Below, piece after piece: positions 14,556-20,086 of a stretch of DNA of 64,000 nucleotides. A program made the translations under genes and the position numbers. Where the stretch lies: contig JAJYYE010000001.1 in the NCBI GenBank assembly GCA_021801265.1, forward strand, positions 1 to 64,000. Direction: 5' to 3'. The notes under the pieces were generated by a model that saw only the letters and a list, made by a program, of their open reading frames with translations, searched no databases and was not told where the DNA came from. This DNA is from Pseudomonadota bacterium. GTDB lineage: Bacteria > Pseudomonadota > Gammaproteobacteria > Halothiobacillales > Halothiobacillaceae. Within the stretch, counting starts at the first letter, position 1, and every line of letters starts with the position of its first letter.

Positions 14556-14584
14556 GAAAACGCCCCGAACTTCGGGGCGTTTTC
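14556..14584 (-). terminator. Strong intrinsic terminator for the rhodanese gene, potentially bidirectional
   Basis: GAAAACGCCCCGAActTCGGGGCGTTTTC hairpin directly downstream of the minus-strand CDS. Confidence 0.85.
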
Positions 14585-14602: not shown

Positions 14603-15589
14603 TTATTTTAGATTGGCCGGGTTGGTCATTTTTGCGCCATCATACATGCTGTATTCAACGATAGAGCCATCATATAAGCGGGCTTTCTTGTCTCCGACAA
14701 TTTCATGCGTGACAAACCACAGGCCGGAGGCCAAATGGCCAGTGTTGCAATAATCAATAATTTCCTTACCAGGATTCAAACCAACCTGCTTGAGCATGGC
14801 TTCATAACTGGCTTTCGGCAGGAAGCGGGCAGAAGAACCATCCGCGTATGTTAATAAGTCAGGGGGTACATTCTTAGCGTTGGGCAAGTGACCGGAACGT
14901 TCTTTAGGTTTAGTAAACACACCCATATATTGATTTGATGGCCGAGCATCAGCGAACTCAGCACTGCCAGGATGTTCTACGGCACGTTTAACATCTTGAT
15001 AGGTTGCTAGAATATTTTTTCGTTCAGCCGTGGCGACCCAATCACCAGCGGTAACACTCGGTGCATCAGTCGCCGCCGTCATCCCATCAGCCAACCATTG
15101 CGCCATACCCCCATTCAAAATCGCCATGTTGTCTTGACCGTAGTATTTCAGCTGCCAATACAGGCGCGTCGCTTTATCCACATCAGGCGTGGATAACCCC
15201 TTCGGCACAATGACAATCGCCTGGCCCTTGTTCACACCCCACGCCTGAACTAATTTTTCGAATGCTGCCTTGTCAGGGATCATATCTTTGACTTTCTTGC
15301 CATCGATTTCCCGCTCAACGCGAATCGCTTTAAAATCTACGAAAGAGGCCCCTGGCACATGCCCTGACACATTGACGGCAACCTTCTTACCGTTAACGTC
15401 TTTGATCTCTGGCGCGGTAGTAAAATCTTTCATCGGGCCGCTAACTTGCAGTACTTTTACATCATTCAAATGCGCATTTAACCAAGCCGGATCAACCAAT
15501 GGGCCCGGTACGTCAACCGCAAAGGCACTCTGAGCTGCAAAGGCAGCGGCAAAAGCAACGGGTACAAATACAAACTTCTTGAAATTCAT
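14603..15589 (-). CDS. Exported tandem-rhodanese sulfurtransferase
   Basis: Signal peptide MNFKKFVFVPVAFAAAFAAQSAFA; rhodanese modules; active-site loop DYCNTGHLASG. Confidence 0.88.
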   Translation of the reverse strand: MNFKKFVFVPVAFAAAFAAQSAFAVDVPGPLVDPAWLNAHLNDVKVLQVSGPMKDFTTAPEIKDVNGKKVAVNVSGHVPGASFVDFKAIRVEREIDGKKVKDMIPDKAAFEKLVQAWGVNKGQAIVIVPKGLSTPDVDKATRLYWQLKYYGQDNMAILNGGMAQWLADGMTAATDAPSVTAGDWVATAERKNILATYQDVKRAVEHPGSAEFADARPSNQYMGVFTKPKERSGHLPNAKNVPPDLLTYADGSSARFLPKASYEAMLKQVGLNPGKEIIDYCNTGHLASGLWFVTHEIVGDKKARLYDGSIVEYSMYDGAKMTNPANLK

Positions 15590-15717: not shown

Positions 15718-16458
15718 TTATACCTGATAACGCTTCTGACCAACGGATTGAATCACCGACAAAACACCCAATATATCCACCGGCTCTTCGCTTAATACAT
15801 GACGCGCCCGATCTTCGCCCGATTGCTCGTCAAGAGCCTGCGCTCCCGACCGGGTCAAGGCGCAATCCCTTGCCAAAAGCACGCGGCTAATTTGCGGCTG
15901 AATCAGTCGAGTCACCATCATCAACCAGCGAGAAACCAACCAAGAGGGACGCGCCCGATCAATCACAAAGGCATCGGGCAACAGATCAATGAGTGCTTGC
16001 GCGGGGCGAAACTGCTCATCTGTGACCCAGCGGTTAGTGGTAAAAATCGATCGGATCCCACCCTGTGCATCCATCGAGAGCGCCACGAAATGGCTGAACT
16101 CAGCCCTAGGCTCCGGTCGGATAAATAAATGGAAATGTCCATGCTCACCATCAGGACGTTCGCCCGCATCATGGGCATGGTAATAAAACATCGCACCCGA
16201 CTCAGGATCCGCGACATCATCAGCGGGATAATGCTGCCAGCGTGATAGCGATGCGCCGGACGCGTCTCGCAGCAATTCACTCAAAATCGTTTGCTGATCA
16301 TTGACCAGCGCCCGATTAATGGCGAAAAACTCATCTGCGGATACCAGCACCTCATCAAAGGCATCGTCCGATAGGCCTTGGAGCCAGTCACGATATCCAG
16401 GTACCGCGTCCTTGGGATCCAAACTCATTTTGCTCGGCACATGCGGGGTATCACGCAC
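15718..16458 (-). CDS. DUF6969-like protein of unknown function
   Basis: MFYYHAHDAGERPDGEHGHFHLFIRPE... His-rich motif; tentative family recall. Confidence 0.6.
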   Translation of the reverse strand: MRDTPHVPSKMSLDPKDAVPGYRDWLQGLSDDAFDEVLVSADEFFAINRALVNDQQTILSELLRDASGASLSRWQHYPADDVADPESGAMFYYHAHDAGERPDGEHGHFHLFIRPEPRAEFSHFVALSMDAQGGIRSIFTTNRWVTDEQFRPAQALIDLLPDAFVIDRARPSWLVSRWLMMVTRLIQPQISRVLLARDCALTRSGAQALDEQSGEDRARHVLSEEPVDILGVLSVIQSVGQKRYQV

Positions 16459-16491: not shown

Positions 16492-16854
16492 TTAACGACC
16501 ACCAGGTGCGCAGGGATTGGCCCCGCGACTGGCCGGTGCACAAGGATTCGCCCCACGGCTGGCTGGTGCACAAGGGTTCGCCCCACGGCTGGCCGGCGCA
16601 CAAGGGTTCGCCCCACGGCTGGCTGGTGCACAAGGGTTCGCCCCACGGCTGGCCGGCGCACAAGGGTTCGCCCCACGGCTGGCCGGCGCGCAGGGATTAT
16701 CCCCTCGCGCATGAGCAGCGGGAATGATCGACAACGCATCCATCGGTGATGGCAGGATAGCAGCACCCGACATAGCGACGGCTAAAGCAGGAATCGACAC
16801 TGCCAAAAAACGACGGGATTTGGTACGGGCTGGGGTTTTCTCATGGCGGTTCAT
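16492..16854 (-). CDS. Exported low-complexity protein with seven NPCAP decapeptide repeats
   Basis: N-terminal signal-like segment followed by RGDNPCAPAS(RGANPCAPAS)x5 RGANPCAPGGR. Confidence 0.8.
   Translation of the reverse strand: MNRHEKTPARTKSRRFLAVSIPALAVAMSGAAILPSPMDALSIIPAAHARGDNPCAPASRGANPCAPASRGANPCAPASRGANPCAPASRGANPCAPASRGANPCAPASRGANPCAPGGR
16521..16700. repeat. Six contiguous 30-bp tandem repeats; 16551-16610 and 16611-16670 are identical
   Basis: Consensus ccccacggctggcyggygcacaagggttcg; lines 16561 and 16621 of the sequence are identical. Confidence 0.95.
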
Positions 16855-16952: not shown

Positions 16953-17627
16953 TTAAACTGCACGGGTATGCGACACCGACCCCACGCCCAGATTACCGTG
17001 GACGGCACTGCCTTTTTCAGATGACTCAATGGTCGGATCAACACCCTCAACAATATCTTCCGCCGTAAGCACCCCATGTGAGCGCTGCTCCATCATTCTA
17101 CCCAGCACAAATCCACCCACGGCAAGGATAACCATGGCAGACAACACAAACCAAGGGGAAACACCGAGCCATTGAGGGAGCGTTTTTGCACCAATTTGCG
17201 CAGTATGCAAAATGGTTTGGGTCAGAGGGGCATCGTAAACTGCGGCGAAGCCCAGAATACCCAACACCATCCCCAGCATGAATACCAACCCATCGATTCG
17301 ACCCGACATGAATCCGACCACCGATGTGCCTGGACAATAACCACCAACCGCAAAACCCGCGCCAATTAAGGCCGCACCCAGAGCTGTTGCCCAAAAAAAG
17401 GTTGTGGGCACAAAAAAACCACTGGAGCCGAAATAATTGCCGCTTTGCAGCAACAAAATCCCGAATGCCGCAACCAAAATTGCCGTAAACATGACTTTAA
17501 AAACAGACCAATCCGTTAAACGAAATTGCGCCGTCAATTTACAGGGCGAACCAAAACCCGCTTGCTCCAACACATAGCCAAAGAGAATACCGGAGGTTAA
17601 CGCCGTACCTGCAACACCGTAATCCAT
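16953..17627 (-). CDS. YeeE/YedE family membrane protein (sulfur transport, half-transporter)
   Basis: FGYVLEQAGFGSPCKLTAQFRLTDWSVFKVMFTAI, GGYCPGTSVVGFMSGRIDGLVFMLGMVLG. Confidence 0.88.
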   Translation of the reverse strand: MDYGVAGTALTSGILFGYVLEQAGFGSPCKLTAQFRLTDWSVFKVMFTAILVAAFGILLLQSGNYFGSSGFFVPTTFFWATALGAALIGAGFAVGGYCPGTSVVGFMSGRIDGLVFMLGMVLGILGFAAVYDAPLTQTILHTAQIGAKTLPQWLGVSPWFVLSAMVILAVGGFVLGRMMEQRSHGVLTAEDIVEGVDPTIESSEKGSAVHGNLGVGSVSHTRAV

Positions 17628-18163
17628 TACCAGACTCTCCGCATAAGCGCGCTAACCGCAAGGCCGACCACAAAAAAAACAACCAGAAAAATAAACCCCG
17701 CCATGCCCAGCATGGCCGTGCCAGATAACCCCACGCCACTCGTGCAACCGGCAGCAAAGCGTGACCCAAATCCGGCCAGAAGCCCGCCAGCTAATGCCAG
17801 TAGCAAACGCGGCATCACGCCAATTTTCCCCGCACCAACATCCACTCTGACTTTGAAACGCCCGGCACTGACAGCCGCCAAAAGCGCGCCTATCGCCACA
17901 CCGATCACCTCAACCACAATCCAACTGGCAAAAGGATTGGCACCGTTTGCCACCATGTGCCCGAGATACCCATTTGACTCAGTGGCTGCTGGCGCCAACT
18001 GGAACCCCAGCCAAGCCGCAATACTCGCAAATGTGCCCGATGCACCCACACCGTTGCCAACCAACACGAACGTGAGAATAAGTACCAAACCCAGCACCAA
18101 GCCCGCGACCAAGGGGGGCCACAAGGGGCGAACAGAAGAACAAACCGGGGAAGATCCAGACAT
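17627..18163 (-). CDS. YeeE/YedE family membrane protein (second half-transporter)
   Basis: GFGSRFAAGCTSGVGLSGTAMLGMAGFIFLVVFF; overlaps the downstream gene by one base. Confidence 0.88.
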   Translation of the reverse strand: MSGSSPVCSSVRPLWPPLVAGLVLGLVLILTFVLVGNGVGASGTFASIAAWLGFQLAPAATESNGYLGHMVANGANPFASWIVVEVIGVAIGALLAAVSAGRFKVRVDVGAGKIGVMPRLLLALAGGLLAGFGSRFAAGCTSGVGLSGTAMLGMAGFIFLVVFFVVGLAVSALMRRVW

Positions 18164-18318: not shown

Positions 18319-19344
18319 TTAAAAAGAAGCCGATTCCGCCTCCAGGTAGGCCAATGCGCTGTATTTACCGATATTCTCATCAAATCCTTTCGTGACAGGC
18401 GCGTATTTTTTGACTCGAGAATCATCCAAGGCCAGCGCCTTGGCGCCTTCTTGTCCAGACATTTCCTGCACCGCTTTTTCGGCTGATTGATAAATCCCTT
18501 CAAATAACTCGCGGTTATGCGCCAAAACCTGCTTGCCCGGATTACCGTGTGCTGGAATCCACAGTGCGCCCGGCACGGCAGCCTCCAAGGCATCATAATT
18601 TTTAAAGGTCCCGCGGAAACTGCCGTCATCCATGAATGCAATTCGATTATCCATGGCGACATCACCCACATGGACGATTTTTCGCCCCACCAGTTCAAGG
18701 CTGATGTCCGAAGGCGTATGCGCGGTACCATAAAAATGCACTTTGATCTGAGTATCCCCAAAATCAAGCACATCGCCGTGGGCAACGATTTTATTGGGCG
18801 GCGTGACCACCGTACCCAGCGTAGCATTGTGGGTAGAACGCTCCATCAAGTGAGTCCAAAACTGCCCCTGACCTGTTTTAATCGCCAAAAGGGTCTTCTC
18901 ATGGGCGTAAATTGGCACATCGGGATTTTCGTTCACAAACGCATGATTCCCCAGCCAATGATCGCCGTGATAATGCGTATTAATCACCGCCGCGATCGGG
19001 CTTGGGGTAACCTTGCGAATTTGCCGGAGTACCATTTCCCCAATTTGTCTTGAGGCGCCGCTGTCTATCACCACCACCCCTTTTTGCGTGGTGACGAAGG
19101 TCACATTGCTCATCATTCCCTGATTTTCGACCGAAGGGAAACCCCAAGGTGAAATCACGCAATAAACCTGCTCATCGAGTTTGGTCGCCGCAATATCAGG
19201 CACTTTCGGTCCTGAAATAACCGAATTCTCTTCGGCAAAAACGCGAGACGCATACGCAAGCGGCAATACTGTGAACCCCGTCGCGGTGCCTACGGTTTGT
19301 AGAAAACGCCGCCGGGGCAGCAGAGCAGATGATTTAGATTGCAT
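18319..19344 (-). CDS. MBL-fold metallo-hydrolase with Tat-type signal
   Basis: RRRFLQTVG Tat motif; NTHYHGDHWLGNHAF zinc motif; start set at MQSKSSALL. Confidence 0.88.
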   Translation of the reverse strand: MQSKSSALLPRRRFLQTVGTATGFTVLPLAYASRVFAEENSVISGPKVPDIAATKLDEQVYCVISPWGFPSVENQGMMSNVTFVTTQKGVVVIDSGASRQIGEMVLRQIRKVTPSPIAAVINTHYHGDHWLGNHAFVNENPDVPIYAHEKTLLAIKTGQGQFWTHLMERSTHNATLGTVVTPPNKIVAHGDVLDFGDTQIKVHFYGTAHTPSDISLELVGRKIVHVGDVAMDNRIAFMDDGSFRGTFKNYDALEAAVPGALWIPAHGNPGKQVLAHNRELFEGIYQSAEKAVQEMSGQEGAKALALDDSRVKKYAPVTKGFDENIGKYSALAYLEAESASF

Positions 19345-19612
19345 AGCGTCACTCTCTTTGATTGATATACGCCTGCGCCCTTCCTTGCGCACTGGGTCAG
19401 ATTTAATCGGACTGTTCCGCGATCTATCTTGCTCAGCACCATGAAACAATTCAATACCTTAATTATAAATTATTTTAATAAATCCCTGAAACGGCTTGGG
19501 TTTATCCCGATGGATCTGCCGGCATCAAATGATGATTGATGCCCAAGTTCTGCAGAATTCATCCGTACGCGTACAATTCGACGATAACTTACATTCAGGC
19601 AAACGAAAAACG

Positions 19613-20086
19613 ATGAACTGTACCGACCATCATAATTGCACCATCGGGGCGCTAGAACATGCCGAGCGGGTGTGCTTAGCGCGTGGCGCACGACTCACCC
19701 CCATCAGAAGGGCGGTTTTAGCCGAGATCTGGACAGGACATGAAGCAACCAAGGCCTATGATCTTATTTCTCGAATGTCCACTGTGGGCAATTTAATCAA
19801 GCCACCCACTATTTATCGGGCGCTCGAATTTCTCCTCGCCCATGGTTTGATTCATCGAATTGAAAGCCTGAATGCCTTCATTGGCTGCGATCATCCGGAA
19901 ACCCAGCATCAAGCCATTCTGATGATTTGCGATCACTGCGGCACGATCAATGAACAATCCAGCGATGCGCTGAACGTGCTGATCGCCACAATCAGCAGGG
20001 CACAGCAATTTAAAACCATCAGGCAATCCGTCGAACTTCATGGCGTATGCACTCACTGTCAAACACATCAGGGCATCACTGAATAA
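19613..20086 (+). CDS. Fur-family regulator, Zur-like
   Basis: LTPIRRAVLAEIW...KAYDLISRMS...KPPTIYRALEFLLAHGLIHRIESLNAFIGC; CDHCG and CTHCQ Cys pairs. Confidence 0.85.
   Translation: MNCTDHHNCTIGALEHAERVCLARGARLTPIRRAVLAEIWTGHEATKAYDLISRMSTVGNLIKPPTIYRALEFLLAHGLIHRIESLNAFIGCDHPETQHQAILMICDHCGTINEQSSDALNVLIATISRAQQFKTIRQSVELHGVCTHCQTHQGITE

Follow-up and report, generated by a model that had tools for sequence, protein, structure and literature searches.

What does an exported protein that consists almost only of evenly spaced cysteines do among genes for sulfur import and sulfur transfer? This question is raised by a short gene in the window, the whole 64,000-nucleotide stretch of Halothiobacillales DNA analyzed here. 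The first-pass annotation of this gene treated persulfide, metal and redox functions as equal options, and the genomic context now favors sulfane sulfur. Our preferred reading, to which we assign a probability of about 0.45, is that the protein would be the exported multi-thiol part of a YeeE/YedE–Cys-repeat–DUF6969–rhodanese module, where it would act as a sulfane-sulfur carrier and DUF6969 would act on its precursor.

The Cys-repeat gene and its operon

The predicted 120-aa product agrees exactly with the initial description: its translation contains seven Cys at a spacing of exactly 10 and none elsewhere, arranged in seven RGANPCAPAS-type units that follow a signal-like N-terminus (Table 1). 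Inspection by eye and hydropathy place a putative cleavage site after AHA and before RGDNPC, and export of the protein is likely from its sequence. The predicted mature part uses only the residues A, C, D, G, N, P, R and S and is probably disordered. As had been noted at first pass, no other domain is apparent; Pfam and NCBIfam searches returned no family match at E ≤ 1, and a sequence search of the PDB returned no relative. At the DNA level, the repeats form one of two tandem arrays detected by TRF in the window.

Table 1. Features of the operon and its surroundings in the window
Feature	Position	Strand	Characteristics
Likely intrinsic terminator after rhodanese	14556..14584	-	13-bp stem and T run
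Two-domain rhodanese	14603..15589	-	Signal-like N-terminus; active-site Cys in YCNTGHLA
DUF6969 (PF22308)	15718..16458	-	No signal-like N-terminus; model pLDDT 90
Cys-repeat protein gene	16492..16854	-	120 aa; seven NPCAP units
Predicted mature repeat region	16495..16707	-	71 aa; 7 Cys, 8 Arg; pI ~9.8
30-bp tandem array	16505..16686	.	TRF, 6.1 copies, score 287
Signal-like N-terminus, 49 codons	16708..16854	-	Basic then hydrophobic; FLAVSIPALAVAMSG; KD 1.9
YedE-type Sulf_transp half	16953..17627	-	GGYCPG; PF04143
YeeE-type Sulf_transp half	17627..18163	-	AAGCTSG; 1-nt overlap with next gene
Metallo-beta-lactamase-fold protein, SoxH-related	18319..19449	-	RRRFLQ Tat-like N-terminus
Fur-family, Zur-like regulator	19496-20086	+	119 bits to NF008646, below the cut-off of 167

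The gene is part of a minus-strand operon with the order SoxH-related protein, YeeE, YedE, Cys-repeat protein, DUF6969, rhodanese and terminator-like stem. The intergenic gaps, in that order, are 155, −1, 98, 33 and 128 nt, so that the DUF6969 gene starts 33 nt downstream of the Cys-repeat gene. Profile searches confirmed the neighbors proposed at first pass. The downstream product is a clear DUF6969 member, which scores 194.9 bits against a Pfam cut-off of 27 and covers profile positions 4–200 of 201, and the two upstream halves match Sulf_transp (PF04143) with 52.6 and 74.4 bits, each with a conserved Cys motif that is retained across module copies. The initial description had overlooked the downstream rhodanese as well as a wide family of related Cys-repeat proteins. 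Most rhodanese copies begin with a signal-like segment, and an active-site Cys is present in every copy read. The SoxH-related gene stays beside the module only within the order. The Zur-like regulator is encoded divergently from the operon, an arrangement shared by 12 loci of the order, and may control the operon.

Conservation and selection within the order

Because the array has a 30-bp period, the alternative frames are open too, and both features would fit a functionless DNA repeat that drifts as a minisatellite and is open by chance. The NPCAP repeat gene is found, on a strict reading, in 19 of the 27 genomes of the order, including the window's own; the named relatives belong to Halothiobacillus and Guyparkeria. 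In the 18 further genomes the repeats are in frame, and the signal-like N-terminus is present wherever the gene is complete. Cys spacing is 10 across homologs, with two spacings of 9 in one protein as the exception. Homologs of the kind sought at first pass, with intact frame, N-terminus and spacing, are therefore at hand. Complete genes encode 4–12 units in Halothiobacillus and 8–14 in Guyparkeria, other unit counts coming from genes cut by contig ends.

The Cys is kept in all 169 units scored, with TGC and TGT both common. Comparison of adjacent units (150 pairs, which are not independent of each other) gave 589 synonymous and 18 non-synonymous codon differences, and third codon positions hold 601 of the 619 nucleotide differences (97%), which settles the reading frame. 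This pattern shows purifying selection on the reading frame and on each Cys. In a neutral minisatellite, 97% of the changes would not fall at third positions; the retention of Cys, frame and operon position in every copy read disagrees with neutral drift as well, and we reject this explanation with very little residual doubt. On comparative grounds, the NPCAP protein is a real and strongly conserved family.

Co-occurrence with DUF6969, suggested as a check by the first-pass annotation, is complete: of the 27 genomes, those with a DUF6969 gene of this type and those with NPCAP repeats are the same 19. G023 and the second DUF6969 copy in G009 are without an NPCAP neighbor and have a cytochrome with CAP-type repeats nearby. 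A twentieth repeat match in the order, in G022, is a CRISPR-like array and not a homolog.

A sulfur-type module beyond the order

DUF6969 was found in 30 of 369 genomes of an even class sample and in 20 of 399 genomes of a phylum sample. Outside the family-specific set, 48 DUF6969 loci were read, two of which (L116 and L117) are additional copies that belong to the window's own family. About two thirds of them (33/48) have a short Cys-repeat ORF that precedes DUF6969 on its strand. A mechanical rule, which required an ORF with a repeated Cys motif on that strand ending no more than ~500 nt before the DUF6969 domain, gave 32/48; correction by eye removed a false case (L094) and added two clear ones that the rule had missed (L123 and L130). 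The Cys motif varies by lineage and includes NPCAAK, CAAK, CGAK, NPCGP, PCGL and PCSL. Most remaining loci have an NPC-tailed cytochrome, a Cys-repeat P460-like protein or a divergent NPC gene within a few kb. No Cys-repeat partner was found nearby in L125, L126, L136, L146 and L094, and L143 lies at a contig end.

The combination of YeeE/YedE, Cys-repeat protein, DUF6969 and, in nearly all cases, a periplasmic rhodanese recurs in about 15 loci (L131–L134, L152–L155, L088, L090–L093, L095 and L113), operon types having been grouped after the loci had been inspected. Apart from the window's own family, these loci represent about ten gammaproteobacterial families and one family of another class (L154); L123, which has the rhodanese on a contig that ends upstream, was left out of the family count. 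YeeE and YedE occur as two halves or fused, the fusion in L155 scoring 214 bits to PF04143, and in L093 the rhodanese was not found in the available sequence. The genes of L153 lie almost end to end, with a BigR-like ArsR gene after them (109.6 bits to NF040642 BigR, cut-off 155). The Cys37/Cys103 spacing of 66 in its product equals that of Cys50/Cys116 in SoxR, two residues that sense sulfane sulfur (PMC10451225). At the level of gene content and order, the arrangement is thus conserved across many gammaproteobacterial families.

The PCGL and PCSL versions (L131–L134, L154, L155, L088, L090–L093 and L095) share an N-terminal membrane-anchor-like segment that ends in DHTRH or similar and is often followed by an acidic linker. 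This segment is unlike the basic, cleavable-looking N-terminus of the NPCAP proteins.

The distribution of SoxB tracks the module. In the class sample, SoxB is present in all 16 module-bearing genomes, compared with 135 of 353 others (38%; p = 4e-7, kinship ignored; SoxB is a fragment in G125, and the operon is incompletely seen in G172 and G384), and counted by family among module carriers it is present in 11 of 11. For DUF6969 as such, the figures are 24 of 30 genomes versus 127 of 339 others (p = 8e-6, kinship ignored). Given the recurring gene order and SoxB, the link to sulfur, YeeE/YedE and DUF6969 proposed at first pass holds and is firmer than was proposed there. Counted against a sulfur carrier is that SoxB is common in the class sample as a whole (41%).

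Occurrence in SoxB genomes would equally suit an unmodified repeat protein that scavenges periplasmic polysulfide, sulfur radicals and oxidants and so protects the cell during sulfur oxidation. The composition of small residues, Arg and Cys only agrees with such a thiol or redox buffer, as does the range of 4–14 units, which suggests selection for capacity rather than for a fixed fold. For a sacrificial thiol there is no obvious need of a precise NPC context and spacing, a constant DUF6969 neighbor or a rhodanese, and the strong synonymous bias within the units favors context-specific recognition. We consider simple buffering improbable.

DUF6969 and NPC repeats in other contexts

DUF6969 is also found without YeeE or rhodanese, in cytochrome, P460 and FGE-like contexts (for example, in Marinobacter, Thalassospira and Azospirillum), and no sulfur genes lie nearby in Azospirillum and many Rhodospirillales. 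The constant partner is therefore not sulfur-specific, and it is more apt to class DUF6969 with the Cys repeats, as their partner, than with the sulfur genes.

SoxA/TsdA-type cytochromes c with NPC repeats are encoded beside DUF6969 in L118, L119, L140, L142, L145, L203 and L221. The SoxA-TsdA domain (PF21342) was scored in three of these loci, with 27.6 bits in L118, just above the cut-off of 27, 35.1 bits in Marinobacter (L203) and 31.8 bits in Denitromonas (L221). A phmmer search of the PDB with an NPC-tailed cytochrome returned no relative. Cytochrome P460-like proteins with Cys-repeat stretches occur near DUF6969 in L137 and L197, with weak Pfam scores of 22–27 bits, and those of L180, L222, L225 and L230 are P460-like too by their end sequence.

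The NPC-repeat tails of SoxA/TsdA-type cytochromes and the repeats of P460-like proteins would suit a cysteine scaffold, in which the repeats cross-link or anchor to membrane or redox partners and organize an electron-transfer or sulfur-oxidizing assembly. The PCGL and PCSL versions, which look membrane-anchored, point the same way. The window copy has neither a redox domain nor, after the predicted cleavage, an anchor, and we regard a scaffold as very improbable here.

A third context, seen in 28 named loci, is an FGE/SUMF1-like gene that precedes DUF6969 on its strand, in most cases immediately; a weak FGE-like match on the opposite strand in L221 was excluded from this count. These loci are mostly from Rhodospirillales-type genomes and Thalassospira, and L141 scores 135 bits to PF03781. 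FGE/SUMF1-like and DUF6969 genes form a conserved pair, for example, in L138, L139, L141, L187, L188 and L192. The NPCAP units do not match the FGE substrate motif CxPxR, since they read C-A-P-A-S-R and place the Arg one position late.

Among 26 genomes picked for an unlinked DUF6969, 8 carry an NPC repeat elsewhere in the genome; ten Azospirillum-type genomes gave no NPC repeat with a DNA pattern that reads only AAC-coded NPC. In the class sample, in-frame NPC repeats were recognized by eye in 12 genomes, 9 of which have DUF6969 (p = 8e-9). In the other three, G087, G102 and G330, DUF6969 was not detected. Pattern matches in G035, G079, G216, G224 and G337 are other frames or non-coding repeats by eye and were not counted.

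DUF6969 and the comparison with metal-binding peptides

DUF6969 alignments contain invariant HxH, E, GHxH, H and N residues; in a second set, fetched with the pattern EHGHFHxF, invariance of EHGHFH is given by construction. The residue pattern suggests a metal site, and the invariant residues fall on adjacent strands of the predicted structure. Models of two representatives, built from overlapping alignments, reached a pLDDT of 90.0 (pTM 0.87) and 93.7 (pTM 0.89). Foldseek found no fold match for either model in the PDB (best E 0.69 and 0.87), and a profile search of PDB sequences gave nothing significant, which makes DUF6969 a family without a solved relative by sequence or fold. No paper in the open-licence literature was found that names DUF6969 or these Cys repeats.

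A putative metalloenzyme next to a Cys-rich precursor resembles the bufferins and captophorins made by MNIO enzymes, which are also exported, carry a signal peptide and often short Cys repeats, and are encoded directly before a cytoplasmic partner. By the same logic of a Sec-type signal, Cys motifs and a precursor preceding a cytoplasmic metal-motif protein (PMC12452194, PMC13097082), DUF6969 could turn the repeat Cys into metal ligands, and the exported product could chelate copper or another soft metal. The invariant HxH, GHxH, E, H and N residues agree with this, as do the 28 loci with FGE/SUMF1-like genes, whose superfamily includes Cys-oxidizing and C–S-bond-forming enzymes. The Zur-like regulator that is encoded divergently in the order could likewise point to a metal role and was counted against the sulfur carrier.

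Several features set the module apart from these peptides. The repeat is NPCAP and not EGKCG, with RGANPCAPAS as the unit and no DUF2282 match; DUF6969 and MNIO are separate Pfam families; and the module has no MNIO (PF05114) or DUF2063-type partner. The only MNIO match in the genome is found ~626 kb away on the contig, accompanied by a small precursor and a partner of its own. The partners retained in the window's lineage are sulfur-transfer proteins, and SoxB tracks the module. A Cys-modified metal buffer hence appears rather unlikely to us. At this distant locus (L266, G000:C8:642469-643251), the MNIO gene is joined by genes for a DUF2063-like partner and a small exported precursor that contains Cys, so a bufferin-type cluster seems to be present in the genome as well. 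Metallothioneins do not account for the protein either, as it has no domain match and no CxC or CC clusters, its Cys being 10 residues apart.

A proposed role in sulfane-sulfur transfer

The importer genes and the rhodanese bring the argument back to the sulfane-sulfur carrier. YedE1E2/PmpAB is like the window pair in having two Sulf_transp halves with one conserved Cys motif each. The available part of the YedE1E2 report describes import of zero-valent sulfur by the two-half protein, a requirement for Cys in each half and a frequent location near sulfur-metabolism genes such as rhodanese, and that part mentions no Cys-repeat protein or DUF6969 gene (PMC10812762). The YeeE-like SoxT imports sulfur for oxidation, which its authors suggest is released from SoxYZ (PMC11582611). 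With the published import by YedE1E2 and SoxT on one side and an exported rhodanese on the other, a thiol chain between them would most simply be a sulfur carrier or reservoir.

SoxYZ, a periplasmic protein, binds sulfane sulfur at a Cys in an arm of small residues; it folds as a heterodimer and has a single GGCGG arm. The Cys-repeat proteins, by contrast, carry 4–14 NPC sites on one chain, and the window protein has neither a SoxY or SoxZ domain (Pfam and NCBIfam, E ≤ 1) nor a GGCGG motif. We know of no described family with this Cys-repeat architecture. By analogy, its presumed working mode nonetheless has known parallels in periplasmic sulfur carriers and Cys-motif RiPPs.

In the mechanism that we propose, the evenly spaced NPC thiols would hold sulfane sulfur in the periplasm as persulfides or polysulfides. 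This sulfur would be exchanged between the thiols and the exported rhodanese and passed on to the YeeE/YedE importer; in this view, the protein would work like SoxYZ with 4–14 sites per chain. In the cytoplasm, before the precursor is exported, DUF6969 would assist it as a chaperone or enzymatically modify its Cys or their surroundings. While the module itself is directly visible in the genomes, we infer this carrier chemistry and the role of DUF6969. The constancy of DUF6969 across sulfur, cytochrome and FGE contexts would most simply make it a maturation factor or repeat-modifying enzyme. Tentatively, and with more doubt than confidence, one may go further and see in DUF6969 a founding Cys-modifying or sulfur-loading enzyme with a fold unlike solved ones, which would mature Cys-repeat proteins and Cys-tailed cytochromes across Pseudomonadota, with the NPCAP protein as one substrate.

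The module offers a compact candidate, in a culturable genus, for the route by which sulfane sulfur passes from periplasmic Sox chemistry into the cytoplasm of sulfur oxidisers. DUF6969, a widespread family whose predicted fold is unmatched among solved structures, gains a likely substrate and a genomic context, and Cys repeats, SoxA/TsdA-type cytochromes and FGE-like proteins are found to have it as a common partner.
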